A stretch of DNA of 64,000 nucleotides, from contig BDIU01000256.1 of the NCBI GenBank assembly GCA_002118135.1, positions 250,773 to 314,772 of the forward strand, given 5' to 3'. The first letter of the stretch is position 1, and every line of letters starts with the position of its first letter. Source of the DNA: Trebouxia sp. TZW2008. Lineage: Eukaryota > Chlorophyta > Trebouxiophyceae > Trebouxiales > Trebouxiaceae. Below the pieces are notes generated by a model that saw only the letters and a program-made list of their open reading frames with translations, was not told the origin of the DNA and searched no databases. The position numbers and the translations under genes were made by a program. Shown here piece by piece: positions 139-63,759 of the stretch.

Positions 139-3100
139 GTGGTAGGGGAGCGCAGTGAGTCAGCTGCTGCCAAGTTGCACCTATGGTTGGAGCGCACCGC
201 CTTCTACAAGGTGCCCAAAAGCCACCAGGATGAGGTTGCTGAGCAATGCCAGAAGCCCTTTGATCAGGTCTGGCTCTGCTCTTCCTTTTACCTTTTCTGA
301 TATCGTCTGCACAGACCTGCTGCACCATCACATAGAGCAGATCTGATGCTGTTGCAGCAGACTTCACTCCCATGGCTTTTCTGTCTGTTTGGCCCCACAG
401 TGCCTGTCTGCAGCCTTTGCTTGCATACGCAGCTTGTGATCAGCTCTTCCTCCAAGCTAGATCCCAGGTTGTTCGAAGTGAGGTGTTACAGCCCAAGAAG
501 CAAGTCATGGGACACTCCGCAGCTGTGAAGGCAAGCTTGTCATGCCATGTCTGTCTGTGCAGCTGATTGATGAGCTGCTACCAGTTGTCCCTGGTGCACC
601 TAATTTGGGTGGGCACAACAGAAGCGGCGAGTCCATGAAAGCTCTGAAGGCCAAGCAGAAACTTCAACAGTCACAACCAGGCAGTGAGGCAGGCAGAAGG
701 GCTGGGGCTGTTGCTGGGGCCTTGCCAGGCAATGTGGCTCAGATGCCCAGTGCAGGCCTTATGCATAACAGCTTGGCTGGCCCTCGTGAGGCCACTTGGG
801 AGCAAGGGCCCCTCCTGGTCAGGGTGAGTGCACAAATATCCCATAAAGTGCATGTTTCGAGTGCACAGCTTCTCACAAGCCAGGGGCCAGGGCTTTGCAA
901 GGCAATGTGGCAGTGACTGCACGTTACCTGGTGAGCAAGCCTAGCAATGCACTCATTGCATGGCATGCATGCACTGACTGCTCAGCACGTCATGAGCAAG
1001 CTTACTTCCTCCTCTCTGGTCTTGTTCTCATTGGCCCTTTCTTGCTGTCCTGTTGTTAGGCTAAGCCATACGATGTCTGATCACTAGGTGGGTCAGTCTG
1101 AAGCCACACATCCATTCAGCACGCCTTACTCGGCCTCTGGCCAGGCTGATAACTCGCAGGGCCTAGAGGCAGCCAAGCTGGCTTTTGCTGCCCTTGCTTG
1201 CTGTTGCATCTGTCGTCTCTCACATGATTCGCGTACGGTAACACAAGAAACACGCCCGAGCTGTGCAATAGACACAAACAAACAAGGTCAAGGCAATGGG
1301 TGCGGATATGTAAATGCGGAACCACAACACAAAACGCTGCAGCAATTGTGCCAAGCAAATACATGCAAGCAGTAGTTGCTGTTGCATCATCAGGCTAAGA
1401 GTGATGTCTGTCCATCAGGTGGGCGAGTCTGAGGCTGCACTTCCAAATAGCACGCCTTACCCAGCCTCTGGCCAGCCTGATGAGTCCCAGACCCTAGAAA
1501 CAGCCCAGCTCTCTACCGCAGCCCCCTCAGGGTCAATTGGGACCAGTGGTGGGGTACCCTTGCCCCTAGGCATTGAGGGGTGGGTGGGCCCTCCCATGAC
1601 AGGGGTCTTTGGCACAAACGATGGGTCAGCCGCTGTTGCAACAAGTGCAGGGGAGCAGACGGCTGTTGAGCCAGTTGGTGAAACAACCAGTGATGCACCT
1701 GCGCCAAGGGAGTATACTGTGAATGGCAAGCGCAAGTAAGCTGCAAGCACTGTACAGGTCCCTGTCAGCTTCGAGCGACGCATTGCAAATTTGCATTGAC
1801 CATCAACAGATGCAGGGCTCAAGTCTGAGCAGCCCATTGTGGTCCTGCAATGCAGTATGTAGATTGCAGCATTCACACATGGAGCCTTGCAACTTTGCTG
1901 TGTAAGCCTTTGCCTTGCAGCTTTGCTGTATTAGCCTGGGCAGAAACAGATCAACAAGTCAACGTATCGCCTAACAGAGACCTGCAGAATACCAGTGAAT
2001 CCTTCACAAAGCAAGACATAAGCAGCTTTGTTGTATACTTTGTCATGACAGTGCAAGACCTAGATTTTGAAGCAACTCCCCAGCAAGCAGGCAAAAAGGC
2101 TGTGTGTCCACTGCATGGGTCCTGCCTGTGCAAACCCTGGCCATAGCCTTGACAAGAGGACCGACTGCTCGACTCTAGCTGGCTGACTCACCAATTGTAT
2201 TGCCTGTACAGGCCGCTGAGCAACACAGGGCAGGGCAGGAGGCGCCTGAATGCCAGGGCAGCCCTGAGGGCAGCAGGGCAGGACCGCCAGATCCAACCCC
2301 TGTCAGCACCCGCCCCCACCACCACCACCCCCCTCCAGCCCTTCCCTGTCAGCCCCCTTGCAGCCAGGTATGCTCAATCTGTGCAACCATCAGTGAATAG
2401 TGTCTTTGAAAATATTTATATGTATTCTGGTAGTGCTGTCATGCTCACTGTGATGCTGTTGGGTTGGGCACTTTTTTTGACACAATGTCAGTTCATGCTA
2501 TTTCCTCCAAAGCACACATGCTGTGATCAAATCAACACTCTGTCTTACTCATCTAGTTCACCCAAAGCACACATGCTGTGATCAAATCAGTACTCTGTCT
2601 TACTCATCTAGTTCCCCCAAAGCACACATGCTGTGATCAAACCAATACTCTTTCTTACTCAACTAGCCGCAGCTTGTCCATTTATTCTAGTCAGGCTATG
2701 GCTGGCGCTTAAAGCTGCACCTACATTAAGCTTCAGGCCCAGGCACAACTGCTACAGCCCAGCATGCAGCCTACCTCACTCATGTATGGCATTGCAGGAA
2801 CTCACTGCTGGAGACAGAGGACAGTGGCAGCGGTAGTGCCAGCAGGAAGCCAAAGGCTATGGCTGGCGCTTACAGCTCCACCTACATTAAGCTTCAGGCC
2901 CAGGCACAACTGCTACAGCCCAGCATGCAGCCTACCTCACTCATGTATGGCATTGCAGGAACTCACTGCTGGAGATAGAGGACAGTGGCAGCGGTGATGC
3001 CAGCAGGAAGCCAAAGGCTATGGCTGGCGCTTACAGCTCCACCTACATTAAGCTCCAGGCCCAGGCACAAATGCTACAGCCCAGCATGCAGCCTACCTCA

Positions 3101-6100
3101 CTCATGTATGGCATTGCAGGAACTCAGTGCTGGAGACAGAGGGCAGTGGCAATGGCAATGCCAGCAGGAAATCCAAGGCTATGGCAGGTGCTTACAGCTC
3201 CACCTACAGTAAGCTTCAGGCCCAAGCGCAGCTGCTACAGCCAGGCATACAGCAAAGCATAGCAGATGCTACAGCATCAGGCAGCCAGGAGCTGCTTACA
3301 GAAGCTGAAAGGGCCGCAGCACAGGCAGCATCAAGGGACTTTGCCAAGCATAGGCAGGCTGTGGGGGAAGCAGGGTTGGACGTTTTGGCACAGCCCTTCA
3401 GGGGGCTGGCGGCAGATGGTGCAGGGCAGCTAGCAGATGGTGCAGGGCAGCTGGTAGATGGTGCAGGGCAAATGGCAGATGGGGCAGGGCCCTTGCAAAG
3501 TGCCCTTTTGGAAGCGCCCCCAGCCCTTCTGACCAGGCAGCTGCGCCTTGGCAAGAAGGTGAGTCATACCCGATGTTGATCCTGTCTATTGTGTCCCTGT
3601 ACACCTGCTTCAATTGTTGTTCACCTGCGCTTGCAGTTGCCTTTCCTGTGTCTTTCAAGCTGCCTTCTCGCTTGCGTTCTCAGGTGCTGTTGGGTACCCC
3701 TTGCAACAAAGATGGGAAGCACAACAATAGCAGAACTGGAAACTGTGGTGTATGTGAAGCCCGCTCCTCATAGCATTTAGCTGTCATCCTCATCATTAAC
3801 AATCAAATGCAATGCTGTGTTCAACTTGTCATCTCAAAAAGCTGCACCATTAGCCGTGTCTTGCTGCTAAATGCTGATGTCTGGCATCTGCAGCTAGCAG
3901 CAAGGTACAGCTGACTGTGCAGCAAGATGAGATGGCACACCAATCACTGTCTAGCAGCTGAGTGATGTATGTTGGGTACCTTTGCTTGGATCTGTGGCTT
4001 CTTGTGTCTCCCTGCAACTGCCCAGCATCCCTTTTGATCAATTTTTGAGTGTATGACAGCAAGTGTTCACGGATCATTGGGTCTTCAACAGTTTAAAAGA
4101 TGACTGAGCGAGATGGTCAGACAGGCTGCAAGCAGAATCAAGCGTGTCTCTGAGCACCTGACTAATTGTCGACAGCACTTTGTGGCTGCCTTCAGAGCAA
4201 GAAGGCCGAACAAGTTGGCCATGGCACATTGTGGCGCCGAGCAGACATGCTCCTGAGAAGGCCCATTATGCGGGTGAACTCATAATTGACTGAGACAACA
4301 AGGATGTTGCCCTGCACAGCAAACAACGTGAGCGATATAGCCATGTGACACACAGGGACACACAGCAGACATGCTTCTTGAAGGAAATCAGCATGGCCAC
4401 AAAATGATGGTATGACAGCAAGTTGGTGTGCCCTGCAGAGCAAGAGGGGCGAACGAGATGGTCCAGACGCACTGAGTGGCGATCAGCAGACAGGCAGTCC
4501 ACTGCATGTGCTGTCAGAGCTAGCACAGCAGCAGGGCAGTCTAGCGGCGCAGCCTTCTGCCCCTGGCCCTGCCCCGGTCCTAGGGGCAGCCAGCACAGCC
4601 CCTGCTAGCATGCAGACCAGGAGTAATGGCACTGCTGCAGCAGGTGAGGTCACCTTTCCTGCCTACATTCACGGTCCAGTCAGCCTCATCCATGCACCAT
4701 GCACAACATGCTTTTGTAATGAATTGCCCTTGATCTTCGGGCAGGCAGCACAGCCTGCTGGCATGCAGACCAGGGGCAATGGCACTGCAAGCACTGCTGC
4801 AGCAGGTGAGGCCATACAGTTTAGATCTGCCACACCGTACAGGCGGCTGCATGCATGAACTGTGTATGCTCAACATGCGTTTGCTGCATACTGCCCTTGG
4901 GAGTACAGCCCCAGCTGAGCAGATGTACACCGGGAGCTATGGCACTGCATCTTTCCATTGCAGTGCAGGAAGCATAGTAGACACACCTTGTGGAAGACTG
5001 ACAGCACTGCGATGCAGGGCAGGGCGCTGACAACAGCCCCAGGCATCGTCTGCAGCAAGTCACCAGTGCACAAGAGCCCTCAGGCTCTGCCCAATTGGCC
5101 CTTGCAGCTGCAGCCGCGGCTTCTGACTTAGCTGATGCCAGCACCCAAGGACACCATGAGCAGCCAGCACCTTTGCACAGCACTTTACCTCAGGCTGCAG
5201 CATCTGCTGCTGCAGCTTCTGCTGCTGAAGGCAAAGCAGGCACTCGCTTCAGCAAGCGACAGGTCAGAAGATCTGAGGCCGCAAGCACGTGATGGGTGCA
5301 TCAGCAGTGCAGCATGCATCTGAGGTAGACATCCACCACTCTCAGCATCATCTCTAGGTCACTTTTGACTGTGATGCCACCGTGCTGTCAAGGCCAGCAT
5401 ACAGCTTGAATGTTCTGATATAGTCAGAAGATGTAAGGCTGTTGTGTACGTGTCGGGTGCATCAGCAGTACAGCATGCATCTCAGGTAGCTTTCCGCCAC
5501 TCTCAATATGTTCTCCAGGGCACTGCATGTCACAGCCCAACAGCTTTCTGCTTGTGACGCGCAACACATGTCCATGACATTGCAGACATGGTCTGCATGT
5601 TCTGCTTCTGTGGGCAGCTCAGTGTGACATGACAGGTGCATCAGCAGTGCAGCATGTATCTGAGGTAGACATCCGCCTAGTCCTGTAGACCACCGCATAT
5701 CACTTGTACTGCTGCCTGTGATGCTTCCCCACTCCATTCAGATAAGACCTTCAGTTTGACCTCAACGCAGTGATTGGTTGATGATTCCCTCATTGCCTAA
5801 GCATAGAGTCAGCAGTCTATATACTTCAGTACGATGGATTGATTGTCTAAAGCCTCATGGCGTTACAAACTTCCCCTCTATAAGGAGGCTCAACCTTCAG
5901 TTTGAGCTCAGTAAGTCCCCAAACATTCAGTGTTTAGCAAGCAGTCAAATTATCAGTACGTCTTGACTTGGCCTGGGTGATCAACCCAGGTTGATTCAAG
6001 TCAACATACAAGTGACTGTCCCTTTGCAGCTGACAGCTCTCAAGGCTGTGACCATGGCCTTTGCATAGCCACAGCACGCACTATACGCACACACAAGTTA

Positions 6101-9058
6101 CATGCGCATGAACAGGAGCCTAGTTTGCTTCCTGCAGCTCGATACTTGCGACTCCCGGTATCAGTAAAAGTGTCAGTGACAATATGCCACACAGACTGCA
6201 GCTCGCAGGTGATGAGTAACAGGATTGCTGTCCGAGTAAGCTTGCACAACTTATGCCCATAGTCCCAGATAGCTTGGTGAGCGAATAGAAAGCCTAGAAC
6301 AACAACATCAATATCTGCACACAAGTCAGTCACAAGACAAGGTACCACAGCAATGAACTGCTGTATCTTCCTTTTCAGTTTCACTTTGCCAAAGATAGGT
6401 GCTTCTGAGTTGTCAGCAAGCCGCAGTTTGGCCGCAACAGGTAAGTAATCTAGGTTCAGTCGCTGCCGGATCATGTGCATCCTTGCCAGGGGTAAATTGG
6501 CCACCATGTTACACTGATGTGCCAGCTGTTGATCATGATGCCGCTGTGGAAACAACACCTCTGCATGACTTACATAAGGCAAAAGTGCTTACAGATGTTG
6601 TGTCAATGGCCACACACTGTTATGAACTCACGACTGACAAGCATTTTATTAGAGAGACAGGAATACACGCTGCCTGCCAACAAGTCTGGTCGTGCGAAAC
6701 CCTGATCAAATACTGAGACAATCAAGGCAATCAAGAATGAACGTGAACACCTGCATATGACCCCCATGCTGTTATAAGGTCAAATACTGAGGCACCAACT
6801 GCCATCTCAAATACTATTGGGCACTGGCGCAAGTGTCAGCTTTGTTAAACCAGACTTACTGAAGCAACTGAAGCTAGGTTACTTTCCTGCCGTCAGCAAG
6901 CCACAGTTTGGCCGCAACAGGCAAGTAATCCAGTTTCAGTTGCTTCAGCTAGTGTGGACTGACAAAGCTGGCGCTTGCACCAGTGTCCAACAGTATCTGA
7001 GATGGCAGTCGGTGCCTCAGTACTTGAACTTGAGACCGCATAGTGAGTTGCTGGTCAGTAGTGAGATCATCACAGTGTGTGGCCATTGACACAACATCAG
7101 TAAGCACTTCTGCCTTATGTAAGTCATGCAGAGGTGTTGTTTCCACAGTGGCACCATGCTCAACAGCTGGCACATCAGTGTGAACATAGATTGGCCGAAG
7201 CACCCCTGGCAAGGATGCACATGATCCAGCAGCAGTGGGCGCAGTCGATAGTTGACTGCCCTTGCTGAAGCCCTTCCTTTGCTTGGCCCAGCAACAGAGT
7301 CAAGAAATGGAAAACTGCAACTTAACACAGGAATGTCTTCACCAGCAGGGGAAGACAGTCTCTGCTGTTGCTAGACACTCTTGTGTCAAATATCAGCCCC
7401 GATCAATTCTCTGCGGGCTGCAGCAAAGACTCGATGTCTCTGCTGCTGGGGTAAGCAAAGTACATGTAATGGGAGCTGAGGCTAGTCAGCGGGTTGTTTT
7501 CAACAGCAAGGATTCTGTGTCTAGATTCAGCTGCCCGCTGTGTATATGCATGCTGCAGCAAAGGCAGTCAGTCTGTGCTGCTCGAAGCCATCTTGTGTCT
7601 GACCTCAGCTCCGTCTTGTCTCTCTGTGGGCTGCAGCAAAAGCAGACAGTCTGTGCTGCTGGGCACATTCCTGTGTCTCACGTCAGCTGCTTATTTTGTA
7701 TGTGTAGGCTTCAGCAAAGGCGGACAGTGTCTGCTGCTGTAGATGTTTCTTATTCTGACCTCAGACTCCCACTGCCTGTCAGCATGTTGCCCCAGCAGCT
7801 CGGGACTTTCCTGTTTGTAGCCTCAGCTCCCCATTGTGTATCTGCAGGCTGCATCCAAGGCACATAGCGGGAGCTCTGGCGCAACAGCAGAGTTGGATCC
7901 AGCAAGCTCTGCCAAACACGTGCAGAAACATGCAGCTCACCCAATACATGCATGCCCTTCAAAATTTTGCTTGCACCTCTTGCTATTCATGCTCAATTAT
8001 GCAATTGGGTCTCTGTGTTGGAAGCTTGCCAGATGCAGTCAGCGCCACGCAAAGCTTCACATGCAAGCAGACTCTCTTAGGTCTGCCTCTGCTGCTCCCA
8101 TCAAAGATGCGTTCTATGTGAATACATGTGCTGTGATCGGTCATACACCGTTGCTGAATGCATAGGCAAGTCGAAATTGCAGCTCTTTCCTGATGGCCAT
8201 GTTGCTGTGAAGGTAGCAAATGCTGAGTCTGCTGGGCGGAAGCGGAAGGGTCAAAACCGTTTGGGGCGCACGAGAGGCAAGCAGGCCAAAGTGGACCGCC
8301 TCAACATGCTTTTTGAGGCAATTGAGGCTGATAAAGCTTCGGACAGTGAGAATGCCTCTGCCAACTACGCAAGCAGTGCCGGCAATCAGGGTCAAGGTGA
8401 AGATGAAGTACAGGAACAGAACACTGTGAGCAAGGGTGGCAGTGAGGGTCAAGACGAAGAGGAAGAGCAGGTCGTTTGGAGGCAGCATAAAGGAGCTGTA
8501 AATGCAGATGATGCTTCAGCAATGCAACATGAAGCTCAGCAGCCATCTGCAGGTACGGCGACCGATGGGCTTTGCAGTCAAGATGAGCTATTATTGGTTG
8601 TCTGCAAGGCCTACCATCCTCCTTATTTGGTGCTGACTCTGCACATCTTGAACTTGCTTGCCCATGAGTCTGCATAGCTCGATCTAATAATAATAACAAT
8701 GACATGTGCCAGCATATACTGCTAGGTGTGTGTAGCACAAGCCTATCTCGCCAGGCAGGCTTGTCTGCATAGCTCGATCTGCACTACTGCTTTCAGACTT
8801 ATGCAATTTCGAAATGGGCTTGATCTTTGCTAAACTACTTGCGCAGGGTTTATAGGTGATCCCACCTGCTTGACCTCTGCTGATGGTTCAACAGTACAGC
8901 AGACGACGTTTTACTGTGGTCTCGGCACTGACTCAGCTGTCTTATCAGATGTCGATATGGCTGCTTCTGGGACCTTAGACACAGATCAACCATCAGAACC
9001 AGTAAACTGTCCACCAATAGAGCAGGACTTGCAACTGATGCTGCCCTATGCTTTGTGA
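139..9058 (+). CDS. Uncharacterised multi-exon gene, 5' end outside window
   Basis: I do not recognise this protein. Phase-consistent exons are 139-267, 563-823, 1419-1735, 2212-2367 and 3120-3558. After an unresolved stretch (3.6-5.0 kb, with exon-like pieces near 3682, 4438-4644 and 4745-4805) come 5056-5262, 8183-8552 and 8856-9058 (TGA). The phase-1 junction 8552/8856 and the phase-2 junctions 1735/2212 and 2367/3120 fit exactly. The protein is low in complexity: Ala/Gln/Pro-rich stretches, a basic patch RRRLNARAALR, a 7-residue repeat (ADGAGQL, four times) in the 3120-3558 exon, a basic AGRKRKGQNRLGRTRGKQ segment and then an acidic region in the 8183 exon. That composition suggests a nuclear or chromatin protein (inference only). 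The intron between 5262 and 8183 holds a retroelement fragment. Joining the 5' and 3' blocks into one gene is inferred from phase and from the lack of a start between them; two genes remain possible. Confidence 0.5.
1088..1180 (+). repeat. Decayed upstream copy of the 1419 exon 5' edge
   Basis: The stretch from the acceptor at 1087 encodes VGQSEATHPFSTPYSASGQ. It matches the start of the exon at 1419 (VGESEAALPNSTPYPASGQ) and lies 331 bp upstream of it. Both copies keep an AG acceptor. Only the 1419 copy leads into a long exon ending at a GTAAG donor. Confidence 0.75.
2505..2672 (+). repeat. 55-bp minisatellite, three copies
   Basis: The string agcacacatgctgtgatcaa recurs at 2511, 2566 and 2621, an exact 55-bp period. 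It lies in the intron ahead of the 161-bp array. No coding role is visible. Confidence 0.9.
2695..3180 (+). repeat. 161-bp tandem array of an exon 5' edge plus acceptor
   Basis: The motif gctatggctggcgctta recurs with starts at 2695, 2856, 3017 and (diverged) 3178, exactly 161 bp apart. Each unit holds the acceptor tatggcattgcag followed by the start of the 3120-3558 exon. Since 161 is not a multiple of three, reading through from an earlier unit meets a stop. Only the last acceptor (3119) gives a frame matching the phase-2 donor at 2367. Confidence 0.9.
5290..5680 (+). repeat. Tandem repeat of the 5.29-kb segment, three copies
   Basis: The string ggtgcatcagcagt begins at about 5295, 5456 and 5635, offsets of 161 and 179 bp. 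Each copy continues into an atgcatct(g/c)aggtag tract. It lies just downstream of the exon ending at 5262. The copies are diverged and non-coding. Confidence 0.75.
6040..7215 (-). mobile_element. Ty3/gypsy-type aspartic-protease fragments in inverted mosaic
   Basis: Three pieces of one retroelement protease region are present. The minus strand of 7212-6893 reads HDLHKAEVLTDVVSMATHCD, then LLDTGASASFVSPH (intact retroviral-type DTG active site), then LKQLKLDYLPVAAKLWLADG. The plus strand of about 6510-6888 carries the same order with LGTGASVSFVKPD, where the catalytic Asp is replaced by Gly. The minus strand of 6495-6040 carries DYLPVAAKLRLADNSEAP followed by the rest of the fold. The pieces therefore sit head-to-head near 6500 and tail-to-tail near 6890. 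No reverse transcriptase, integrase or LTR is visible, so this is a dead remnant. It lies inside an intron of the flanking gene. Confidence 0.75.
7330..7770 (+). repeat. Degenerate 78-bp tandem repeat
   Basis: Related segments of the form ctgcagcaaa-gcagacagtctgtgctgctg occur with clear cores at 7564, 7642 and 7720 (78 bp apart) and weaker ones near 7345 and 7420. Because 78 is divisible by three, one frame stays open for about 200 codons with a Cys/Leu-rich 26-residue period. I read this as an accidental open frame within an intron. Confidence 0.75.
8686..8762 (-). mobile_element. 77-bp short retroposon with 18-bp target-site duplication
   Basis: A 77-bp segment is flanked by perfect 18-bp direct repeats, gtctgcatagctcgatct, at 8668-8685 and 8763-8780. 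Read on the minus strand it ends in a T-rich (ttgttattatt) tail and starts with a block resembling a pol III A box (tggcgagatagg). A related copy lies at about 46635-46720 in the same orientation. The long perfect flanking repeat is typical of target-primed retroposition. The SINE-like assignment is inference. Confidence 0.65.
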
Positions 9059-32069: not shown

Positions 32070-35000
32070 TCAACCATTTGCTTTAGATCGCTTCTTTCGC
32101 TGTGCTGGGGGTCTGATGGCTGCTTCTAGGCCTTGCATTGCGTCACCGTCTGATGCTGCAGTGCACACAACAGCAGAGCTTAGTTCAAAAGTGCTGCTGC
32201 TTGCGCATACTCAGCACAGCAAATGTGCAGAGCATTTACTCCCCCCAAAGTATCAAATATGCTCACTCAACAAAGGTATGCGGCAGTGCTCGTGTTAGGT
32301 CAGCCAGACAGGGGATGCGCCACACAGACATGATTTTTATGCTGGAACAAAGTAGCAACTATCACTGAAAGTACAAAGTACAGCGATATAACATAAAGAC
32401 ATCACACCTGCATTACCTGCTAAAATGGCAGCTCCAGCTTGTAAATCAGGATCTGCTGTGTCACCCGCACTTTTGGCTGCTTTAGGCGGTCGCGCTTGCC
32501 GCCAGCTTGACTTTGTATGCACTGCTTGTTCTTTTGGAGTTATGGACCCTGCTGTCTGATGTTGCTGTTGTTCTGCAGTCAAGTTGCCTGCGCAAAGTGA
32601 GAATTATGACATGTGGCAAAACAAGTGTCAGGTGTGTCTAGCCTATGACACATGTATGACCTTCTGCTGCCAAGTTGCCTGTAAGAAGTAAGGCTTGTTG
32701 ACACGTGGCAGCAGGTTTAGCTTTGTGTAGCGGGTGACACATCAACTGTTTCAGTTGCACAATTGAAGGCTGTCAGCATCTGTTGCTAGCCGCATGGATA
32801 ATGTGTCAAGGTGAATTGTATGGTTTGCGTAGACCATCATGTATCAGCCAGGCCCAGCACGTGACCGTAGGTGTGTCAAACACAATGACAACTCTGCTGG
32901 ACCAAGCTTCTTCGTGTTGGTCACAACAGCTGCTCATAGGAGCTCATTGCAATGATCTGATTCATCTGGTCAGGCTCAGGCATATGTGTGTGAGCAGTCG
33001 TTGCGTAAGAAAGCACAGGCACTGCTGCAATGTCTGTGCAAGATCATCATCCAGCAAACAGCCATGCAAGGCATGCAAATCGCTTGCAGCACGCCTCATG
33101 TATCGATCTCAACTATGACTTTCCACGCCTTGAACATGACACATACAATGCGTAGCAGACAGTTTGGCTTGTCAGTGCTGTCAGGAGCTGCACCTGAACT
33201 TGTCGCCATTTCAACATCAGCGTCTCCACCATCAGCTGCATCCTGTGATTCTTCATCTTCCATGTCTTCATCACTCCCAGACTCACTTGTGCTGACTAAG
33301 TCTGAGTCATCTGAACCTGAGTCCAACTCAGCCATTTGCAATCCAGGCTCTGAAACCAACACAAGCACTGTTGAGCCTATGTGTCCATCACCCAATCTAG
33401 CTCTGAACTTGCAATGCACGATGGGTTCTGTACGCTATGCAGCTATCTAAGCTGTTGGCGCATGTATAGGCAGCAGGATATGATTGCCATAATGACCTTG
33501 TCAGAGGCTCAATGTAAATGGCGCCTAGAGAGCATTTGTGACAAACAATCAATCACATGGTTTATGCCCCATATTTTGAGCACAAACCAACCTGAAACAG
33601 CATCGCTGTTGAGGATTGTGGTAGCTCTGCCATGCAGCTTTGGCCCAGCTGCAGTCTGATGGTGACGCCTGATGCGGGCTTGCACCCTATCAACATCATG
33701 TGCCTTCAGGCTGGCTTGTAGTAAGCTGCTCAGCTCCTTGGCTTTCACCTCTGCAAGCCTTATGAGCCGCATCACCTGCACCAGCAGGCTTCAATGCCAA
33801 CAGAGACTCTGAATGTTCTGAACATGCTGACATAGATGTTTCTTCTTCACCCTTGCAGTTGGGCAACATCAGGTGCCTTCAGGCTGGCGTTGCAGCAACC
33901 CACTTAGCTGCTTTGCTTTGACCTCTGCAAGCCTTGTCAGCCGCATCACCTGCATGAGCAGCTAATGGCTCTTGATGCCAAATGACCTTGTGAATTGGGC
34001 AACTAGTTCATCAGTGTTCAGGCCGGCTTGTAGTCGTGCACTTGGTTCCTTGGCTTTCACCTCTCCAAGCCTGATCAACCGCATGACATGCACCAACACC
34101 TGCAGCAGCAGCAGCTGAAGTGTTTTGAAGCCAAGTGACACAGTGAAGCAGTCTTTCTTGTTGCGGTGTCATGTGCCTTCAGGCTGGTTTGCAGCAACCC
34201 ACTCAACTCCCTGGCTTTCACCTCTGCAAGCCTGATCTGCATCATCACCAGCAGCAGCAGCAGCTGATGGGCCGTGACGCTGACTGGGAGCACAAAGCTG
34301 GCCAGGTTTCTTGCTTGGGTCTTCATCTCCGCAAGCTTGATCAGGCGCATCACCTGCAGCTGATGGCCTTGATGCCAACAGAGACTTTCACATGGTCGGC
34401 TTCCATGTCTTGGTTCAGACCCTGGAAGCCAGATCAGATGCATCACTGCAGGCACGGCTTGCCTCTGCAAGTCTAATCAGGGGCATCACTTACAGCAGCC
34501 GCGGCAGCAGCTGATGGGTCCTGATGCCAACAGAGATTTTCACATGGTCGGCTTCCATGTCTTGGTTCAGACTCTGGAAGCCAGATCAGGTGCATCACTG
34601 CAGGCACAACTTGCCTCTGCAAGTCTAATCAGGGGCATCACTTACAGCAGCCGCAGCAGCAGCAGTTGATGGGTCCTGATACCAACAAACCCTTGAGACA
34701 TTGACAGATCTTTGCCCTTTTCTGCACCTCTGCAAGCCGAAGATGGCTCTTGTAGCCGCAGCGCAAACTCAGCATTACCCAAGCGCTTTCGCCTTTTCTG
34801 TGATGTAGCTCTTTGCAGAAGTCCAAGCTCATGACTTGCAGCAGCAGCAGCTGATGCGTAGCAACGATGCACGTGATGGCAGTAGGCTTGGAATGTGTTG
34901 CAGGCAACATGCAACTATGTACAAAGCTCCATCATGATGACTGCTGTCACAAAGCATGCAATGAATGTCCCCTTCCATGCTAACTAGTGGCATTACCTGA

Positions 35001-38000
35001 GCATCCATTGATGTGAACAGTCCACAAACCAGCACTGTTTCAAAATGGCTGCACAGTTGGCTTGAATCTGAATTTGCCCACACTAAGAAGGGGTTAGTCA
35101 ATCACCTCAGAGGTTGGCAGCCCAATGCCGCTGGTCTTCTGCACTGCGCACAGCTCCCCAAATGCGTTCACAATTACCGTCATCAGACCGGATGCTGCAG
35201 CTTCCTCCTCAAGACTGGGGTCCACAACCATCAGCTCACCTGCCTCCACCACCACACAACACATTCAGCTGATGACTTCAGATAACGCAGGCACAAAAAC
35301 AGATTCCTGTTCAGCATGAAGCAGCTACTGTTTTGGAGAAAGGCAGCCGAAGGCCCCAGGTCTTCTGCACTGCGCACAGCTCCCCAAAGGCATTCACAAT
35401 CACCGTCATCAGACCAGACGCTGCAGCTTCTTCCTCCAGGTTGGGGTCCACAACCATCAGCTCACCTGCCTCCACCACCACACAGCACATTCAGTTGGTG
35501 GCTTCAGCATTTGACATCATTGAAAGAGGGCAACTTGCAAAATAGGGATGATGTGTAGCGGCTGCTGACCTAAGCTGAATTCACATGGGACATTCAGCTA
35601 GTGGACTCATAGATCACTGACACATGGTCAGATCCTTGCTTGAGACAGAGAAGCAACTAATGGAAGGCTGGGGTCCACGACCATAAGCTCACCTGCCTCC
35701 AACATGACACACCATATTCAGCTGATGCTGGTGACACACAGAAAGATGCCTGCTTAGTGTGAAGCAGCAACTGAGGCAGAGGGAACCATACAATGTTTCA
35801 GCAGATGAATTAGACATGATTGACATATGGACAGACATCCTGCTTGGTATGGAGTGGTTACTGACCAAAGGCTGGGGTCCACAAGTGTTGGTTCACCTGC
35901 CTCTCGACCCCACACAGATGATTTGACTGATAGCCTCAGACATTACTGACACACAGTCAGATTCTCTGCTTAATCGAGCTTGAATTCCAAGAAGCAGGAG
36001 TCTGTGCACCTGTGGTCTCATGCCTGACTCAGATGTAGATAACCAAGCGTGAACCTGAACGCCTCACCTAAAAGAGGCAAAGGTGATGCAGAGGGGGGGT
36101 GTGGTGTATGCTGAGGGGTAGGGGCTCTCTGATGTCAGGGGGGTGAAGCACCACCTGCTGCCCCTCCCCTGACTCACCAGCTTCCAAGGTGACTTCAGGC
36201 CTTCTGAAGGCTGTATGTGCGGCATGCATAGGATTGCTGGTCAATGCTAACCAAGTATGGGTTTTGAATGTCTCACCTGGAAGGAGGCAAAGGTGATGCA
36301 GAGGGGGGTATGGTGTATGCTGAGGGGTAGGGGCTCTCTGACGTCAGGGGGGTGAACCACCACCTGCTGCCCTTCCCCTGACTCACTGGCTTCCAAGGTG
36401 ACTTCCGGCCGCCTGAAGGCTAGCAGTGCTGCTAGTGCTGACAAGGACGCTGCGTCTGCCAGGTTGCCATTGTGGTCTAGAATGTGCACATCAACCCTGA
36501 TTGACCACACCTGTTCCATTGAAAAGACAAACATCAGCGGTCTAGGATGTGACCATCCATTTTGATGGACTAGACCTATTGCATTGCTAGGACAACAGTC
36601 AAACAATGCACATGCTGCAAATGAACACCTCAGACCAGCATTTGTCGTATTGGTGCATATTTGTCATCTGCAACGTGACTCTTGAAGGCTAGCAGTGCCG
36701 CTAGTGCTGACAAGTACGCTGCGTCTGCCAGGTCGCCATTGTGGTCTAGAATGTGCACATCAACTCTGATTGACCAGATCTTTTTCAAACAGCAATATGA
36801 ATGTCAGGGTATGGAATATCAGACAGGTGTTGCAGCTCAACAACAACGCATTCAACATGGTTGACACATGCAATATAACGCTCTGTGATGACTGATTTGC
36901 TCAACACCTGCGGTGAAATGGCGCATGTGCATGTCCTACGTTGTGGCATAATGCATGCTCGCATAGCAAGCCATGCCACATCACATGCTTATGAAACGTA
37001 CCAGGTAATGTGTCAGAGCCAGCCAGACTATCAAACATCAAAAGCACTTCCTAACCCATGTACCTTTCTGCCTGCCAAAACACATAGCGCCTCTAGGTCA
37101 ACAGCTTTAGTTTCCCTCAGACCTCTCTCAATCAGACGAGCTAGCTCGTTGGCATTTTCAGTCGGCCTGCCAGGCTCAAAATTGGGAGATGCCATGGGGC
37201 TGAACTCCACATTGAATCGCAATGAGCCTTCATTGGGCCTGAAAAGCAATAATTTGCCTTTTTGAGCGGCTGCAAATGCATTGATTTGTGAACATTGTCA
37301 ACAAGCCTTCATTGGACCTGAACAGCAACAATTTGCGTCTTTTAGCGGCTGCAAATGCACTGATTTGTGAATATTGTCAACGAGCCTTCATCGGGCCTGG
37401 GCTCAGCAATATTGCGCCTCAGCGAACCCAAGACAGAGCCGTCACTCCCAATGTTGCTGCAGACATTGAGCGGGGAACTCCCAGAGGCCGCGTCACTGTA
37501 TCCGTGCGCAGTAAGCCAGATCCATCACCAGACGCCCCTCAAGTTGTTCTAAATACCAATTCAGAAGATGCAGAGATCCAGTGGTGGCAAAATGCATTGA
37601 TCACGGACATGTGCATGAGGTCAAGGTGTCAGACTTCAATGTATGTGTGAACGGTTGAGATCGATCATACGGATTGATGTAACAGCAAAGCTGCCCTGTC
37701 ACCTAAGCTGGACGTTGCATTGCAATGAAATTTCAAGACAGGTGCCTTTGGCAACTGCGCAAAACAAGCATTTGTGCGGCGCTGAACATGCAGAACAGTA
37801 ACTTGCAGATCTTGTGGCTTTCTCATGTCACGCCGATTGGCAGCAATGCTGAGCAAGCAACATGTTGTGATGGCTTTGATTATCACCTGTCAGGGTATGG
37901 TGCCTCCAAAGTGGCAGTCACAACTGAGAGAACTCGTGTTTGCCCCAATAGCACAGTACAGCTGGAGTCGTCTAAAGTGTATTCAAACGCTACTTTGCGA

Positions 38001-38176
38001 TAGTCGCCGGGGGCTCGACCGTCTACTCGCACCTCTTCGTGAAGGGCCTGCGGCAATGCAAAGCGCGATGCAACGGTGCGGACCTGACAGCACAATGCGT
38101 TTTCTGATGCTTATACCTTGACGATGAAGTCTTTCTGGTTGTTGGCCAAGTTCACATCAGCCTCGCGCACATTCAT
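32070..38176 (-). CDS. RRP45: Exosome complex component RRP45 (EXOSC9/CER7)
   Basis: Nine exons in transcript order: 38176-38117, 38047-37887, 37238-37064, 36510-36277, 35234-35106, 33775-33592, 33349-33194, 32587-32417 and 32155-32070. They sum to 1356 nt, 451 residues. The RNase PH fold is clear: ALHEEVRVDGRAPGDYRKV, LGQTRVLSVVTATLEAP, FEPGRPTENANELARLIERG, VDVHILDHNGNLADAASLSA, PLSIHHTPLCITFASF, VVDPSLEEEAAASGL and a C-terminal helix VMRLIRLAEVKAKEL. This subunit is a non-catalytic member of the six-subunit ring of the RNA exosome. The C-terminal extension is acidic (SGSDEDMEDEESQDAADGG) and ends in a basic RKKRSK signal. An in-frame ATG nine bases upstream (38185) is an alternative start. 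The exon 5 acceptor is weakest: the phase requires 35235, while copies suggest an AG five bases earlier. Nearly every intron carries exon-edge copies. Confidence 0.92.
33776..34745 (-). repeat. Array of upstream copies of RRP45 exon 6 5' edge
   Basis: On the minus strand the exon start (gtgatgcggctcataaggct and variants, encoding VMRLIRLAEVKAKEL) recurs. Core ctgcaag positions are 33751 (true exon), 33925, 34063, 34224, 34329, 34465, 34617 and 34730. Offsets are 174, 138, 161, 105, 136, 152 and 113 bp. Most copies keep a recognisable acceptor and about 20 codons. Only the most downstream copy continues to a phase-correct donor. Confidence 0.9.
35240..35900 (-). repeat. Array of upstream copies of RRP45 exon 5
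   Basis: The minus-strand block ggaggcaggtgagctgatgg and the following VVDPxLEEEAAASG coding recur with boundaries at 35239 (true exon), 35465, 35692 and 35896. Offsets are 226, 227 and 204 bp. The 35465 copy is nearly full length (through GELCAVQKT) but lacks a donor; the two farther copies keep only the first dozen codons. Confidence 0.9.
36060..36780 (-). repeat. Copies of both edges of RRP45 exon 4
   Basis: The exon's 3' half with its donor is repeated 210 bp downstream in transcript order (36061-36215). Its 5' half (WSIRVDVHILDHNGDLADAA) is repeated 269 bp upstream (about 36682-36780). The intact exon, 36510-36277, sits between them. Confidence 0.9.
37239..37420 (-). repeat. 78-80-bp copies of RRP45 exon 3 5' edge
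   Basis: The acceptor and first codons of exon 3 (plus-strand cattgggcctgaa) recur at 37231 (true exon), 37309 and 37389, offsets of 78 and 80 bp, upstream in transcript order. Confidence 0.8.
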
Positions 38177-38185
38177 CAATGTCAT

Positions 38186-38661: not shown

Positions 38662-41206
38662 ATGGTATACTGGCTGCATACATCGACCAATCGCTTCACG
38701 TTCAGCAGACAGGGCGCGCTAGCGCCAGTACTGAGCCTTGCAGCAGCTTGGAAAGGTCGATCTGTGGTGCGCAGCTCGCCAGATAGACGTTCCGTACCAA
38801 CCCGTGCACTAGTTCAGCGGGACAAAGAGTTGATTGAAAGAGTTCGCTTGCGTAGAAGAGTTCTGCTTGGCACAGCTGCTGCACAGCTGCTAGTTGCCTC
38901 GGCTGCAGCGGTTTGGTTTTTGCAAAGACCGGGCTCAGGTTCGTTTAGACACAAGCTTGTGCGAAGCTCGTTTATTCCACATGCTCACAGACACATGTAG
39001 ACCAAGCTTTCTCACTTGGTTCGTGTAAGCACGCGCAGTGATCTGCGTCATTCCACTATCTTTGATCAGCTTGTGATCCATGCATGTTGCAAGCAGGTTT
39101 TCAACCTGGGACCAAAGCTGTCTCTATCATGTCTGGCTTCTTTGGAACAATCAACAGGAGCCAGGCGGAACTTATGAAGAGCCTGCAGCAGGAGGAGAGG
39201 GTCACTGACAAAACAGCGCAGACCATGTTGCAAGTTGACCGGAAATATTTCCTAGACCCTGACAATAAGGAAACCCAGGACAAAGCCTATCAGGTATTTT
39301 TCCAGCTATCACAGTCACTGCAGCCAACAGGCATAATTTTGTCCAACACTCAAGCAACAGGTATTACGGTGTAATACAGGATCATCCTTTGTCAATAGGA
39401 TATGGAGAGACCATTAGCGCGCCTCACATGCATGCTGAGGCTTTGAGGTTGCTTGAGAACCACTGCCCGCCTGGAGCTACAGTGCTTGATGTGGGCTCAG
39501 GTCAGCTTGTCCCCATCTCTTTGCCAATATCATTTGAGTCTGTGCCAGCAACTTTCTAGGTTTGCTCAACTCATTTCACCCTTGTTATGCATTTTACTGG
39601 CTTCATGCCTTCTTTGCAAACAACCAGGCACTTATCTGTAGGGCATGCACTAGCTGCTCAGCATGATAACAAGTCTTTACGACATTCAGAGACAGCCCTC
39701 TTTCAGCCTTTCTTGCAGCTTATGTGCTGTACACTTTGTACACATCATACATACACTGCTGGCACTACTGAACAGCCTATTTCTTGGCAAACATCCTGTC
39801 CTGCAGATATCTCCACTCCTGCAGGTTTTGGTCTTTGACTGGCTGCTTTGGCATCATTGTGGTGATCTTGAGGGTCAACATATTGGCAAAGCTTCCCCGT
39901 GTAATGTGAAGTCATAAAACATCACTGCAGGCTCTGGATACTTGACTGGCTGCTTTGGCATCATGGTGGGGGACCATGGACAGGTGCTAGGTGTAGAAAA
40001 ACATAAGGAGCTAGCCCATAGATCAATAGAGAGCCTGCAAGCAGCAGTCCCTGACCTCATGAAAAAGGGCACCATCAAAATCATGCCAGGCAATGTTTTG
40101 GGCAAGGTTCTTGGCACTTATGGCCCTTTTGATGCCATCCATGTGGGCGCTGCAGCTGCTACAATGCCACAGGTGACGCCTGGTTGTCGTATTTAGCAAG
40201 CAACTCATGTCTCTCATCATCGTAGATCAACAAACAGCAGTCTAAATTCTGAGACCAGAGGCTCTAACAATGACGCCTGGCAGCATGGCACTTCTCCTGC
40301 AAATCTTTCCTTTCCACAGCTCTTGTTGTGCAGCCCTCGTGCTCTCTAGCATCATGCTGCTGGGCTGCAAGTTTGCTTTGAAGACAACAAAACCAGACTG
40401 GCAAGGTACAGACAAGAGCAACACATCTGCAATGCTGTGTGCGCACAGTGTCGTCATGCACGCTCAACTTGTGTTGCACTGCCTTGCATCTGCTGTTGTG
40501 GGCTGACTAATTATAGGCAAAGAGGGCAATACACTCACTTCTCATTGAGCACCACAACCGTCTATAGCAAACAAACACTTTTGATGCAGAGTCTCTGGAC
40601 TCAGAATGGTGTCTGAAGGGTAAACATGTTGCAACGCAGAATTTGATCGAGAAGCTGAAGCCTGGCGGCAGAATGGTCATTCCTGTTGGTGCACAAAATG
40701 ATGACTACCAGGTCAGTCATCTATTCAGCATGGCTTGGTTCCTGGTGACTGCCTCACACACATTGGAAACAATACTTCTGTGCTGCTGTGCAAACTAGCT
40801 GTCGTTGCGTTCACCAGTCTGTTAGTGCGCTTTTAGTGTGCCCTTGTATGCATGGTCCAGGTTTACGATGCTGTGTTGCTTGCTTATCATTTTGTCTGTC
40901 ATTCCACAAGTCATTCAAATGCTGCATCAGTCAAAGGCATCAGTCATTTACTGGTTTGTACAGTTGCGCACGCATGCAATCATAGTTCACCACCTGCTCA
41001 ACAGGAAACACAGACAGCATGGGCTTGTCACGACCTTCCTGTGAAGTGCTGGTCAGCAGTCCAACCAAAAGATGTGTATGCAGGTTCTGAAACTAGTTGA
41101 CAAGGATCAAGATGGCAGGGTGCAGGAAAAAGATCTCATGTCAGTCAGATTTGTGCCTCTTACTGAGCCAGGCACAGATCCTTATGTGGGCAAAGACGAA
41201 GAGTGA
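38662..41206 (+). CDS. Protein-L-isoaspartate O-methyltransferase with N-terminal extension
   Basis: Six exons: 38662-38938, 39097-39293, 39380-39500, 39931-40172, 40640-40711 and 41084-41206. They sum to 1032 nt, 343 residues, with every phase matching. The catalytic core starts near residue 104 ([19 protein letters not shown]) and shows [14 protein letters not shown], the S-adenosylmethionine loop [36 protein letters not shown] and the C-terminal [10 protein letters not shown]. The enzyme methylates isoaspartyl residues in damaged proteins. Unusually, exon 1 adds about 100 residues: a basic Ser/Arg-rich leader and one hydrophobic segment ([20 protein letters not shown]). This predicts an organelle-targeted or membrane-anchored form. 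The core's own Met (39129) could start a shorter cytosolic form. Confidence 0.92.
39815..39875 (+). repeat. Upstream copy of PIMT exon 4 5' edge
   Basis: The block gactggctgctttggcatca at 39837 repeats the exon 4 sequence at 39944, 107 bp downstream, including an upstream tgcag acceptor. The copy's frame is broken after a few codons. Confidence 0.85.
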
Positions 41207-45500: not shown

Positions 45501-48500
45501 GCAAAGCAATATGACTTACAAATGTTGTTTCAGAAGCTGTTCAGTCTTGGGACATCCAAAATTTTCTTCTTCAGCATGGACACAGCACAGCACAGCACGG
45601 CAGAGCAAAGCGCAGCACAGCGCAACGTGAAGCAGGATGACTTACGGGTACTGCTTCAGAAGCTGTTCAGGCTTGGGACATCCAGTGTTCTTCTTCTCCA
45701 GCATGGATGCAGCATCAGTCAGATCATGTTGAATGTTATCATCACTGACTTCCTCCAAGGGGCCAATCTCTCCCGTCCAATTAGGTAATTGTAGTAATGG
45801 TGACCTGGCGTGGCCGTCATGGACGTGAAGGATCGTGTAGCGCTGTTCAAGAAGGGAAGACAGCATGGCGGGAAGATCAGCCAGTTCCCGCCATTTGTTG
45901 TTGATTTCCCATGCTCCAGGAGTGTACTCCATGACAACATGGTCAATCCTGTGACACATAACAGTCCAACTTGGTAAAACCAAAGATTCTTGAGCAAAGC
46001 TGTGCAGCAGATAGCTAGGGATCATGTAATGTGAGGGTACATGGCTTTGTAAGCAATTCAAGAGGTTACAAGTGTTGCATCGAGCAATTGGGGGTATGTG
46101 AGACCAGGTCAGCGTGATGCAAAACACACTCTACAAAGGACATCCATCTTCTGAGCTTGACCTTGTATGCACTGGCAAACTTTAGCAACCATGTGAAATA
46201 GCGCTTTGGGCTAATCCAAATGTTGCAGCAAACAGAGACAACATCACAGGGGAAAGACAAGATGTGTCTGTTTGGCTGTATAGCAGATCTATAGCTTACC
46301 AAATTGCACAAAAAGCCATCGTTCACTGCAGCAAGCAACACAGTTGCAACATGGGTCCATGGATCCAGCTGAGATATACTTACTGGTAATCTGCAAACAC
46401 ATCCTCTGCAGACTCTATGACGCCTGGCTCAAAACCCTCGACATCAACCTTGAGCAGCAACACATCTTCATGCACCACTTCGTCTATCCTTTCTCCCATT
46501 GCACGCACTATCTCTAGCTCGTTCCATTCCTCTTCAGCGTAGGCACGACTGCAGGAAGTAAAGAGCAAGTCAGATTGTGAATCTTGAGCAGCAATACATG
46601 TTTTTGCAGCATTCTGTCTATCCTCTCTCCCATAGCATAATAACAATAATACAAGCTTACACTTTCCAGCACATGTGCTAGGTGTGTGTGGCCTAAGTCC
46701 TATCCTGCCAGGCCGGCTTGTTTTGAGCGTCACGGTCAGGACGGTTGATGTTCAACATGCAACATCCCATAGCATGCACTATCTCTAGCTGGTTCCATGT
46801 CTGTTCAGTACAAGCACGGCTGGACAACAGAAAGCATGTTCACATTAACCATGAGCAGCAACACATCCTCATGCACCACCTCGTCTACCCTTTCCTGTTC
46901 ATGCTGAGCCCGCCGTCCCAGGCACATCTGAAATAGCATTTTGGGCATGCAATAAGCAGCATCTCAGCAGCTGATGTTCAGATTTGAAGCCCTGACCTGT
47001 CAATGTTGAGGCCGCCGATTCCAGCTGTGCCCCAGATGCCCTTTGACGGCACCTTCAAATCATATGTCACTCCACTGATATCTGCCACTGCCGTGTCGCG
47101 AATCTCAATGAGGTGTTCAAGGCGGTTCAGCTGCCTGTTGTATTCAAGGAATGCTCTGAATTGTGGTATGGGTTCCCAGGTGATAACTCTGCACGCATTT
47201 GGACATTTTTTCATGCTGGCGCTGCAAAGACAAGAGTGGCGGTTGTACTCCAGAAATGCTCTCAACTGAGGTATTTGCTCCCAGGCGATCACCCTGCATT
47301 GTGCAGTGCTTCTGCTCCTCAGGGTAGCAATTGGGGGGCATGACTTGCACATCCACAGATTGTGGATTGGTTGCGTGAGGTAGACTTTCCTTTTCTGATG
47401 GCTGTGTGTCAACTGCTACAGCAATGGTTTCAATGAGATGTTACTTTCTAATTCTGCATGGAGCTCATGCTACGAAGAGCAACCCTGACTAGATGTTTGA
47501 TTCTGTCCATAAGCATATGCCAGTCAACTGCAATGACACAAGCGATACGCTGTAGAAGATATCAGTGTAATGCAATGGATGTAATGCAACAGCCAAAATA
47601 CTGGTACAATTCTCACCTGCAACACAGTTTAGCTGCATGAAAGCTGTACCAGCCAAAGTTACCACCAACATCAGGAAGCTCATTTCAAGACACATCAAAT
47701 CATCGCGTGGACAAATAGCTGAACGTGCAGCAAATGTCCAAGGGTGTCTCATGCAACCCAACTTCAGCGCGCCAATAGTGTAGGAACTTTTTGTCTGAAA
47801 GGTTTTGCGCTGCAGCCATAAGGTTGTTAGGTGTCTCACCTGCAACCCAGTGTAGCCGCATATATGCTATACCAGCCAAAGTTACCACCCACATCTAGCA
47901 CCAGCCGTCGTGACCCATCAGGCTTTATACACTTGTCTCTAAGCGCTTGATACCACATCATTGTCAGTCCAAGCTCAACAACCCCTCCAAACTCCATTTG
48001 CCCACTGACGTCCACATCTTTTTGGGGATCTGTGTATGCCATGCTGAAAGAAGGCACCGTGCTTGTGTTCTTCACAAAGACATCAATCTGCAGCATCAGA
48101 CTGATGTCAAGGTCGTTTTAGGCATTGTTGTATGCCATGCTGAAAAGGCACCGTATCTGTGTTGTTCACAAAGACATCAGGCTGCAATCAGACTGCATTG
48201 CGCATCTTTCTGGGGTTCTGTGTAAGCCATGCTCAAAGAAGGCACCGCGCTTGTGTTCATCACCAATTCACAAACGCATCAATCTGCAGCATCAGACTGC
48301 TGGGACAGAAGCGGCATTGTGTTGCAATTGCTACCTAATGCTATGAATGATGGTCTTGTTTTCACGCACATCACTCTGCACAAACAGACTAATGTGCTAG
48401 GAGTCAGCATTGTGGTGCCTTGTGCTTGCATGCCTCACCTAAACATATGCTGAAGCATTGGAATATTGTCACCACATGGGGTGTATGTGTGACAAGGCTC

Positions 48501-58800: not shown

Positions 58801-61800
58801 CTCAACAGCCTCAGGGAGATTCGCCACTCTGGGCATCAGGGCAGCATCGTGCATTACAATGTTGTCACTGCTCACCTGCAGTGATGCTTGCGCACTGGCA
58901 TCTGCATTCTCAGGGTCCTCCAGGGCAGCTTGCATGCTGGCAGGCTCAGGTGCATCCACAGCGTGCTCCAAACTCAAATTCAAATTTGAGTTCAAACCCG
59001 AAGTGCCACGCCGAGATGGGTCTGACATTGGGAGCTGCTGTTGAGCATGCTGAGCATGCTGAGCATTGGCAGCTTCCTGCACAAGGGTTGTCTGTTTGGC
59101 CTCTTGCCCTGAGTTTAGCTGCTGCATTGAAGACTCAAGCCGCTTGAAATGCTGCATGATGACACTCAAGGCCTGCCGCAGCTCTCCCACTTCTGCATGA
59201 ACAGCCTCCAGGGCACCTCCAGACTGCCCTGGGGCGCTTTCACACTGCCCTGGGGCGTTCTCAGACTGTCCCTGGGCTGGCCTCGCTGCTGCTGGGGCGC
59301 TCCCGGCTTGCCCTAGGGCTGCCCCAGGCTGTGCTGGGGCATCTGAAAGGTGCCCAAGGGCATGCCTGGTACAGGAATCAGGGTGCCCTGCTCTGTTGAT
59401 GCTGCCAGCATTGGCCAGCTGCCCCACAGCTGCGGCGTTTGAATCCCTGGCGTGACTGCCCTTGCAGCTTCTGCCATGCTGAGGCTGACTTGTGCCAACA
59501 TCACTCTTAGCTGAGTCGTGCGTGATAGCAGCCTCTAGATCTTGCTCATCTGTGCTTTTGTCTGGAGCTTTGCTGAAGCCAACAATCTGAACAACAACAG
59601 AAGTCGCCTGAGCGCTGTGCCCTTGTAATTTAGCAAGGCACGACAAAGACTAAGCTGAACTTGTGAAAGGCAGCTGCCAGTGTAAGTTGCTGTCCATAAG
59701 TACAGCAGCAGCGTTCACATTTTACGCTCAGTGCTCTCCCAGCAAACAGGTTGCATAGCTCATACAAACAAAAGGAATTGCACAGCATTAGGCATTCTGA
59801 AGCGTACCTCTGTACCCAAGAAGCAGTACAGAGTTGCTGCAGTGAGCAGCAAACAAAAGTTTGCGGCTTCATGCTGGCGCCAGCACAGCACAGCACAGCA
59901 CAGCACAGTACAGCACAGCACAGGACAGCACAGCACAGCACACCTGAGAAAGCAATCTGACTGCTTCAGCGCACTCTTGGTGCTTTGTCTGCAAGGACTG
60001 CTGCAAAGTTGCAATCTCCCGCTTCAGCTTTCCCTCCCGTTCGTCAGCCAGGCCGGCAAGGGCACTGGAAGCCCTATTTGTGACCCAGTATTCCCGACCA
60101 TAGAAGTAGAGCAACGGACTGCCTGCAGACATGACCCTTAGGTGTTTGCTGCAAGCAGCTCATCCTGTGTCTGTCAGGTGATGTTGCCTGGTGGTGCACA
60201 TCAAGAAATTTGTTGCTTATTGTTGGACAATGACTCAACATGGCATGACAAGGCATAAGGCATGGGACACTTAATGTAATTGTGCGAGGCAGCATACATG
60301 CAAATTTATCTGATGCTGGAAAATCAGACGCTTGTGGCTGACTTGTGACTTGCTTGCAATGATGGGACAGTCATGATGTAGTAGCCTTGACTTGGCACTC
60401 AATGCAATCTGTGGGCCTAAAATTACATTACGCTCACCCTGCCACAATGGTGTTTTCGCTTTTCAGTTTGAGTTTGTTGCAACAGAGGACAAAACCAAAC
60501 AGAAGTCTGAAGAAAGCAAAGAGAAGAGAGTGATGTACAAACATACCTGCAGGTAGGAAGCAGGTGGTGACTTCAACAGGAAACATCCATGGACCAATGC
60601 GGCACATCATTACACAAGTATTGCTGGCGCTTCTGGCTTTCTCAACTGCTTCGCAATTGTCCAAATCGGTGAAGGGCTGACTGTGCGGGTCATTACACAA
60701 GACCGTCTCGTTACCATAGCCAAAAGCAGAGTGCACAACTGTGCAGCCCTGCATAGTATAAAGCACAAGCTGAACCAAGTTGCAAGCTGGCAGACAATTG
60801 TGTACAAAGATCATTCCATTCTTGACGTTCAGTACACATGTTTCAGCTTAGCACAGGAGCAAGCTGCTTGGGGAAGAGTGATTGCTCCAATATGCAGCTA
60901 GCTGGCCTGCTGAGCCTGTCCAGCATGCGTGGGGAGAAAATGAACATACGAACAAACAAACGCACAAATGAACAAGACTGCAAGTTGCAACGAGAACTGC
61001 TCTGGAAGCGTAGGAGTTGTCAACTCAGGTCAAAGAATATTGCAGGCAGACCTGGTACTGGCAGTGTGGACACAATTGCAGCCGCGGCGCAGCTGAGTTT
61101 TGGCAAGTCACAGGCAAAACATGACAGTGAGAGCTGCTTTTCCGTCAAGAGGGCTGATTTGTTGCTTTTTAAAGGCAACCTGTTCAATCAAGGGCACTGT
61201 GCCAAAGGCAGAAAGCAACATGTTGAATGAAGGGGCATTGTATCAAGGCAGAAAGCAAAAGCTCCACACAGCAAGCAAAATGTTCAATCAAGGGCACTGT
61301 GCAGTCAAGGGCACAAAGCAGAAAGCAAAACATTGAAGCAAGCAACACTGTGCAATCAAGGGCACAAAGCAGAGTGTACAAGAGCACCTTACCTCACTCC
61401 AAATGGCTGCCTTCCCACCTGCTGCGACTTTCCTCTGCATACAACAGGTCCACATCAGCTTCAAAGTTGTTGCCTAAGCTCCACCCGCAATGCCAATGAG
61501 AGCAGGCACACTTGGTATTGGTCATGCAATACTTCATGTCAGAATGCGTGCAGCTTCTGTGCAGTTCTTTCAGCATTGCAACATGCATATTGCAACCAGA
61601 CGTTCCTTGACCACAAGCGATTTTTGTGTCATTTGCCACAGCAAAAGTCTGTTTGTCTTACTGACAGACAAATGCCTTCAAGACATATACAAAATGCTCT
61701 TGCAAGGCCCTTAGTGATTTCTGACATTGCAGAGTCAAAGTGCCACCTCAACTTTGATCTACCTCCTGAGCAAATTACAGTCAGACACTCTTTTTTGGCT

Positions 61801-63759: not shown

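Follow-up and report, generated by a model that had tools for sequence, protein, structure and literature searches.

This study was concerned with short repeated sequences that lie beside exons in the introns of the lichen alga Trebouxia sp. TZW2008. The window (the whole 64,000-nucleotide stretch of DNA that was analysed, to which all positions below refer unless a locus is named) had been described, from its letters alone, as a place where introns consist of degraded tandem copies of the neighbouring exon edge together with its splice site. The preliminary description placed copies of a 5' edge upstream of the exon and copies of a 3' edge downstream. It proposed duplication across splice junctions as their origin, and it viewed them as a mechanism of intron growth and a reservoir of alternative splice sites. 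The question raised by this locus is whether such copies are real, how they arise and whether they are used.

The gene for the exosome subunit RRP45 was defined by homology. Two of its exons were fixed by PDB exosome chains, with RRP45 among the best, and the six-exon model of 320 aa is 100% identical to the sequence P0001 across its full length. The protein is also 85-89% identical to those of Trebouxia strains C0006, C0009 and C0004 (in C0004 over 71% of the query). Exon-edge copies occur at five of the ten mapped intron borders of this gene, namely the acceptors of exons E3, E4, E5 and E6 and the donor of E4, each within that exon's own intron (Table 1). The other window genes are ab initio models, and 26 of the 32 repeat clusters there coincide at least in part with a predicted exon; the remaining copies in Table 1 are therefore candidates. 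For example, a 503-aa model built by hand for the gene at 1-5.3 kb gave four weak protein matches over 6-7% of its length, and two long read-through frames in the window gave zero Pfam matches.

Table 1. Coordinates of RRP45, of its exon-edge copies and of candidate copies in predicted gene models of the window.
Feature	Position	Strand	Basis
RRP45 (exosome subunit), first six coding exons	33592..38185	-	homology
RRP45 exons	38185-38117, 38047-37887, 37238-37064, 36510-36277, 35243-35106, 33775-33592	-	
E3 acceptor-edge copies (intron end, acceptor, about 14 nt of exon), period 79	37239..37399	-	self-match 37225-37320 / 37304-37399, 89%
E4 acceptor-edge copy (97 nt of exon), spacing 269	36683..36787	-	self-match 36414-36518 / 36683-36787, 92%
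E4 donor-edge copy (144 nt of exon and donor), spacing 209, downstream of exon	36056..36212	-	self-match 36056-36212 / 36265-36421, 91%
E5 acceptor-edge copies, two: 35342-35507 (128 nt of exon, 90%) and 35664-35773	35342..35773	-	self-matches with 35116-35281, 35211-35330
E6 acceptor-edge degraded copy array	33864..34687	-	self-matches with 33691-33808, spacings 173, 473, 577; further 151-bp repeat
161-bp array reaching intron end, acceptor and start of predicted exon	2693..3253	+	three copies, 91-97%; putative gene model
Copy of 5' part of predicted exon 1419-1735, spacing 331	1072..1179	+	self-match 78%; putative gene model
Copy of 3' edge of predicted exon 4439-4648, spacing 155	4739..4814	+	self-match 79%; putative gene model
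Copy of 5' edge of predicted exon 39931-40172 (PCMT domain), spacing 106	39819..39862	+	self-match 87%; PCMT match
Part-copies of predicted exon 46384-46548 (FkbM methyltransferase domain match), spacings 134, 401	46580..46894	-	self-matches 81-91%

Self-comparison of the window gave 73 same-strand repeat pairs, 71 of which are separated by less than 600 bp and one by more than 10 kb, and TRF and a second repeat finder returned these arrays as well. The genome of this Trebouxia has 68.5 Mb in 527 contigs and a GC content of about 50%, and the available text on published Trebouxia genomes gives 63-74 Mb and about 50% (PMC11523091, PMC12712428). Elsewhere in the genome, local repeats were present in 16 of 20 pieces of 10 kb and absent from the other four, and their share of a piece ranged from 0 to 48%. 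Dinucleotide shuffling of 26 pieces, once each, left zero repeat pairs. The local-repeat pattern is a feature of the genome and not a peculiarity of the window.

A set of introns defined by homology was built from exon-wise profile matches of CCT and HSP70 genes, which were joined where profile neighbours were adjacent, and the donor and acceptor of each junction were picked by frame and consensus. The CCT genes were taken from 10 of the 12 contigs matched, eight of which gave confident introns, and the HSP70 genes from four of ten contigs; neighbouring CCT matches were left out where over 25 positions of the profile were missing. Confident introns were obtained for 36 of 40 CCT junction pairs (eight genes) and 24 of 25 HSP70 pairs (four genes), the other four and one being dropped for a low score or none. 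With RRP45, the set comprises 13 conserved genes, 65 introns and 130 borders; kinesin exons were also matched, and the set contains no kinesin gene. Two genes were selected with their copies already known, RRP45 from the window and the HSP70 gene L039, whose copies had already shown up among the matches, and the unselected set without them holds 53 introns.

Copies of the exon edge were found in the exon's own intron at 21 of the 130 borders (13 acceptor and 8 donor, as counted from the printed matches), one of these being the donor copy of L039, which ends 7 nt before the border. In the unselected set the figure was 12 of 106 borders. The controls were matched with exon sequence alone, 120 nt in length or 80 nt for the wrong side. 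By this matching the own intron was hit at 16 of 130 edges, compared with 0/130 in the shuffled own intron, 0/130 in its reverse complement and 0/130 in one random intron of another gene. The neighbouring intron on the wrong side was hit once (1/88), which may reflect a short exon with overlapping edges. The exon-edge copies are thus confirmed as real, beyond the window, in unrelated conserved genes. They are of local origin, as had been claimed.

The position of the copies followed the described rule. In the homology-defined genes 31 matches lay on the expected side and none on the wrong side, and in the predicted genes 59 lay on the expected side and two on the wrong side, in addition to eight whole-exon copies; these are counts of matches, not of independent events. 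This rule is a consequence of geometry and not an extra discovery, because the protein survives a tandem duplication over one border only where the surplus copy ends up in the intron. Exon pieces inserted in a scattered way would be expected on both sides, and against such insertion the rule does count. Among the 65 homology-defined introns there were no whole-exon copies with both splice sites, and none had a donor region matching its acceptor region, the layout of an intron born by duplication. The ab initio genes gave 26 rows of the latter layout, which were discounted as unreliable because they lie in arrays where the finder tends to invent exons. Lastly, unselected introns with copies had a median length of 511.5 nt (n=10) and those without copies 299 nt (n=43; p = 0.0006). 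This difference is only consistent with growth, because long introns also have more room for copies.

These observations are probably best explained by frequent local tandem duplication, placed nearly at random, together with selection for those outcomes which give the right mRNA. Units of about 70-270 bp (middle half 113-166 bp) would be duplicated almost anywhere. Within coding sequence such an event would mostly break the gene and be lost. Across a single splice border it would be tolerated; the site joined to the rest of the exon would give the right mRNA, and the extra exon edge and splice site would be spliced out along with the intron. The intron would become longer by one unit, the exon would be held by selection and the spare copy would drift, and repeated events at one border would build an array of copies differing in age. 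The correct copy may be chosen through recognition across the exon, a reading that fits the observed use of the innermost site pair. We infer the duplication step itself and its near-random placement.

A different reading takes the copies to be functional exons, either alternative or mutually exclusive, or else a splice-site reserve kept by selection, and this is very unlikely. In several copies the reading frame is open and the splice sites are intact, with AG kept in 19 of 23 matches, GT in 6 of 8 and 13 of 23 copied acceptors differing by at most 3 bits from the real one; on average, however, the copied sites are weaker (acceptors 6.6 vs 9.8 bits, donors 3.8 vs 9.2 bits). The gene finder took two CCT6 copies as exons, adding 19 and 38 aa in frame, each addition with an exon-edge copy and the second also running 46 nt past the real donor. 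Both additions are missing from P0125, a 1806-nt contig of 12 members that is identical elsewhere, and likewise from P0128 of Trebouxia sp. A1-2. For RRP45, the P0001 contig of 1484 nt is mRNA-sized when compared with the 4.6-kb genomic span of the six exons; its source label, lgn, presumably stands for assembled public reads. It contains each exon once and leaves the copies out. The copies are thus excluded from the mRNA-sized sequences of RRP45 and CCT6, which are two genes only and in which minor isoforms would be invisible. The copies have also decayed. Most differ from the exon by about 8-30%, and divergence is 15.0% in exon-to-copy columns and 22.8% in intron-to-intron columns of the same genes. 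When residue differences were polarised by relatives, 38 changes were assigned to the copy, 3 to the exon and 8 to neither (counted per match; 26, 3 and 5 in RRP45 and 12, 0 and 3 in CCT6). At the three exon changes the copy has the state of 5/5 relatives (residue 177), 4/5 (residue 223) and 3/5 (residue 273), and at least the residue-177 copy appears to be older than a change in the exon itself. One point in favour of working exons is that third codon positions differ in 162 of 675 columns, compared with 80 of 689 first and 66 of 686 second positions. This is more than expected from plain decay, with the array copies not being independent of each other, and base composition did not account for the excess, since substitution rates were independent of base. 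No clear sign of selection keeping the copies was seen in the RRP45 and CCT6 residue changes, the divergence or the splice-site scores. The proposed reservoir of alternative splice sites was therefore not upheld. Judged from these comparisons, the copies are most probably decaying fossils. It is also highly improbable that the copies are ordinary minisatellite arrays or assembly errors which touch exons by chance. Several window arrays do contain three or more copies according to TRF and the repeat finder, and the expansion of minisatellites belongs to the same kind of process; against this, the pattern is repeated in unrelated conserved genes, and the divergence of most copies from the exon is too great for misjoined alleles.

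The remaining two alternatives concern the duplication step, for which plain head-to-tail duplication is an incomplete account, because some matches cover part of a period and some spacers match neither flank. The match covers 0.9 of the period or more in 8 of 10 intronic clusters and in 25 of 46 predicted exon-edge clusters, and an origin by duplication across splice borders, as had been proposed, is supported yet with this restriction. The other 21 of 46 edge clusters match less than 0.9 of the spacing. Flank alignments were hard to read as a tandem test owing to gap scoring; hence four young pairs were inspected directly, and these have 48-60 nt between the copies with a poor match to either flank. 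Such spacers could come from later deletion, from further duplication or from a copying step that is not strictly head-to-tail, for example template switching in repair, by which a piece of a nearby exon edge would be inserted and separated from its source by unrelated sequence. We consider this last possibility distinctly unlikely, given the full tandem units and the match tally of zero wrong-side copies in the homology-defined genes, where such insertion should use both sides. It is unlikely, too, that exon edges are preferred targets, with duplication guided to the border by, for example, nucleosome position, transcription or coupled repair. In a 200-kb sample with ab initio models, an exon edge is reached by 46 of the 61 clusters; of the others, 10 lie in introns, 3 in exons alone and 2 between genes. 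The edge share expected for random units is 0.24 (plus 0.10 spanning several borders). The gene finder used for these models had learned from the 65 introns; when run on the genes it was trained with, it recovered 59/65 exactly and placed eight exons wholly inside known introns. Strong edge targeting, as suggested by the first counts (21 edge borders vs 3 intronic clusters where 0.51 was expected, and the 46/61 above), was rejected. These counts were inflated because exon-containing pairs remain detectable longer and because RRP45 and L039 were chosen with copies known. With exons masked, so that only noncoding similarity counted, 17 of 37 sample clusters still reach an edge, where the share predicted is 0.245 (p = 0.004) or 0.347 (p = 0.10) according to the null model. 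The homology genes gave 6 of 11 vs 0.336 or 0.386 (p = 0.13 or 0.22), and 3 of 7 without RRP45 and L039. The bias-free test thus leaves an excess at exon edges that is at most weak. Pair spacings peak at 155-185 bp, which would favour guided placement; the primary periods, however, have a median of 136 bp, a middle half of 113-166 bp (n=61) and no sharp size, and nucleosome-sized units were rejected on this ground. Near-random placement, selection and unequal decay explain most of the edge excess. It is doubtful that the exon borders of Trebouxia are duplication hot spots which drive a genome-wide ratchet of intron lengthening, one exon-edge copy at a time; if this were true, the introns would hold a readable fossil record of former exon sequence.

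Near-random duplication with selection, the preferred explanation, has relatives among known systems, which are compared here as far as the available portions of the cited papers describe them. In the tandem genomic duplication model a new intron is gained from an exonic AGGT segment (PMC3443670). This model shares with the mechanism proposed for Trebouxia a tandem duplication within a gene that is harmless as splicing removes one copy, but in Trebouxia existing introns are lengthened and the new-intron layout was found in 0/65. One case in the potato RdRp gene is a duplication across an intron-exon boundary which created a new intron and inserted exon sequence (PMC4974935). Its duplicated unit likewise holds the intron end, the acceptor and the exon start, whereas Trebouxia has many cases and an unchanged coding sequence. 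In Drosophila a few novel intron positions arose by tandem duplication or sliding (PMC2891723); the likeness is a local duplication beside proto-splice sites with the copy spliced out, and the difference is that in Trebouxia intron length changes at unchanged positions. Introners also change intron content genome-wide, but there one element family is copied between genes (PMC9860276) and each Trebouxia copy derives from its own neighbouring exon. Related sequence in the introns of unrelated genes, a trait of introners, was seen neither in the window (one of 73 pairs more than 10 kb apart) nor in the one random other-gene intron tried for each edge (0/130). Tandem exon duplication, with its mutually exclusive exons, also places copies of exon sequence next to the exon; these are whole exons used in the mRNA (PMC9013439), whereas the Trebouxia copies are partial, skipped and decaying. 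The head-to-tail array of minisatellites is present in part of the Trebouxia arrays, in the proportions of full units given above.

Single cases of such duplications have already been published, and the frequency seen here is apparently unreported, as a literature search found no genome-scale report of the exon-edge pattern. The available text of the two Trebouxia genome papers does not contain the word "tandem", and "intron" occurs once, in a reference, in one of them (PMC11523091, PMC12712428). The lengthening of introns is seldom visible, since the origin of the extra sequence has usually been erased; here it can be read as the neighbouring exon. With copies at 12 of 106 unselected borders (21 of the full 130), it becomes possible to measure how often border-crossing duplications occur, how large they are and what becomes of them. 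In addition, natural variants become available for testing how one of several near-identical splice sites is chosen, and an older state of the coding sequence can survive in a copy.

Several minor observations were made on the repeats. Their density is uneven in the 20 random pieces (L009-L028), being 0% in four, 43% in L021 and 48% in L024, which sits on the same contig as the window. Spacings of less than 65 bp occurred in just 1 of 198 near self-matches of these pieces and the window, although TRF reports some short-unit arrays in the window. The periods of the sample edge clusters leave a remainder of 1 on division by three in 22 cases, of 2 in 14 and of 0 in 10. An inverted repeat at 6462-7233, whose arms measure about 185 nt and are 90% identical, with 405 nt between the inner arms, is like a small non-autonomous DNA transposon. 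In the CCT gene L034, the segments 1047-1224 and 1505-1684 form an inverted pair, 84% identical, in two different introns. A near-perfect hairpin at 18920-19018 has 44-nt arms (93% complementary) and an 11-nt loop. Pentanucleotide arrays of the CAGCA type lie in two places about 14 kb apart, at 45265-45323, 45414-45494 and 45581-45621 and at 59881-59942. Lastly, the window frames 29691-30293, 21929-22288, 10338-10562 and 18157-18717 match Myb, a bifunctional nuclease domain, S1 and NEMP, respectively, the NEMP match being under the curated cut-off.
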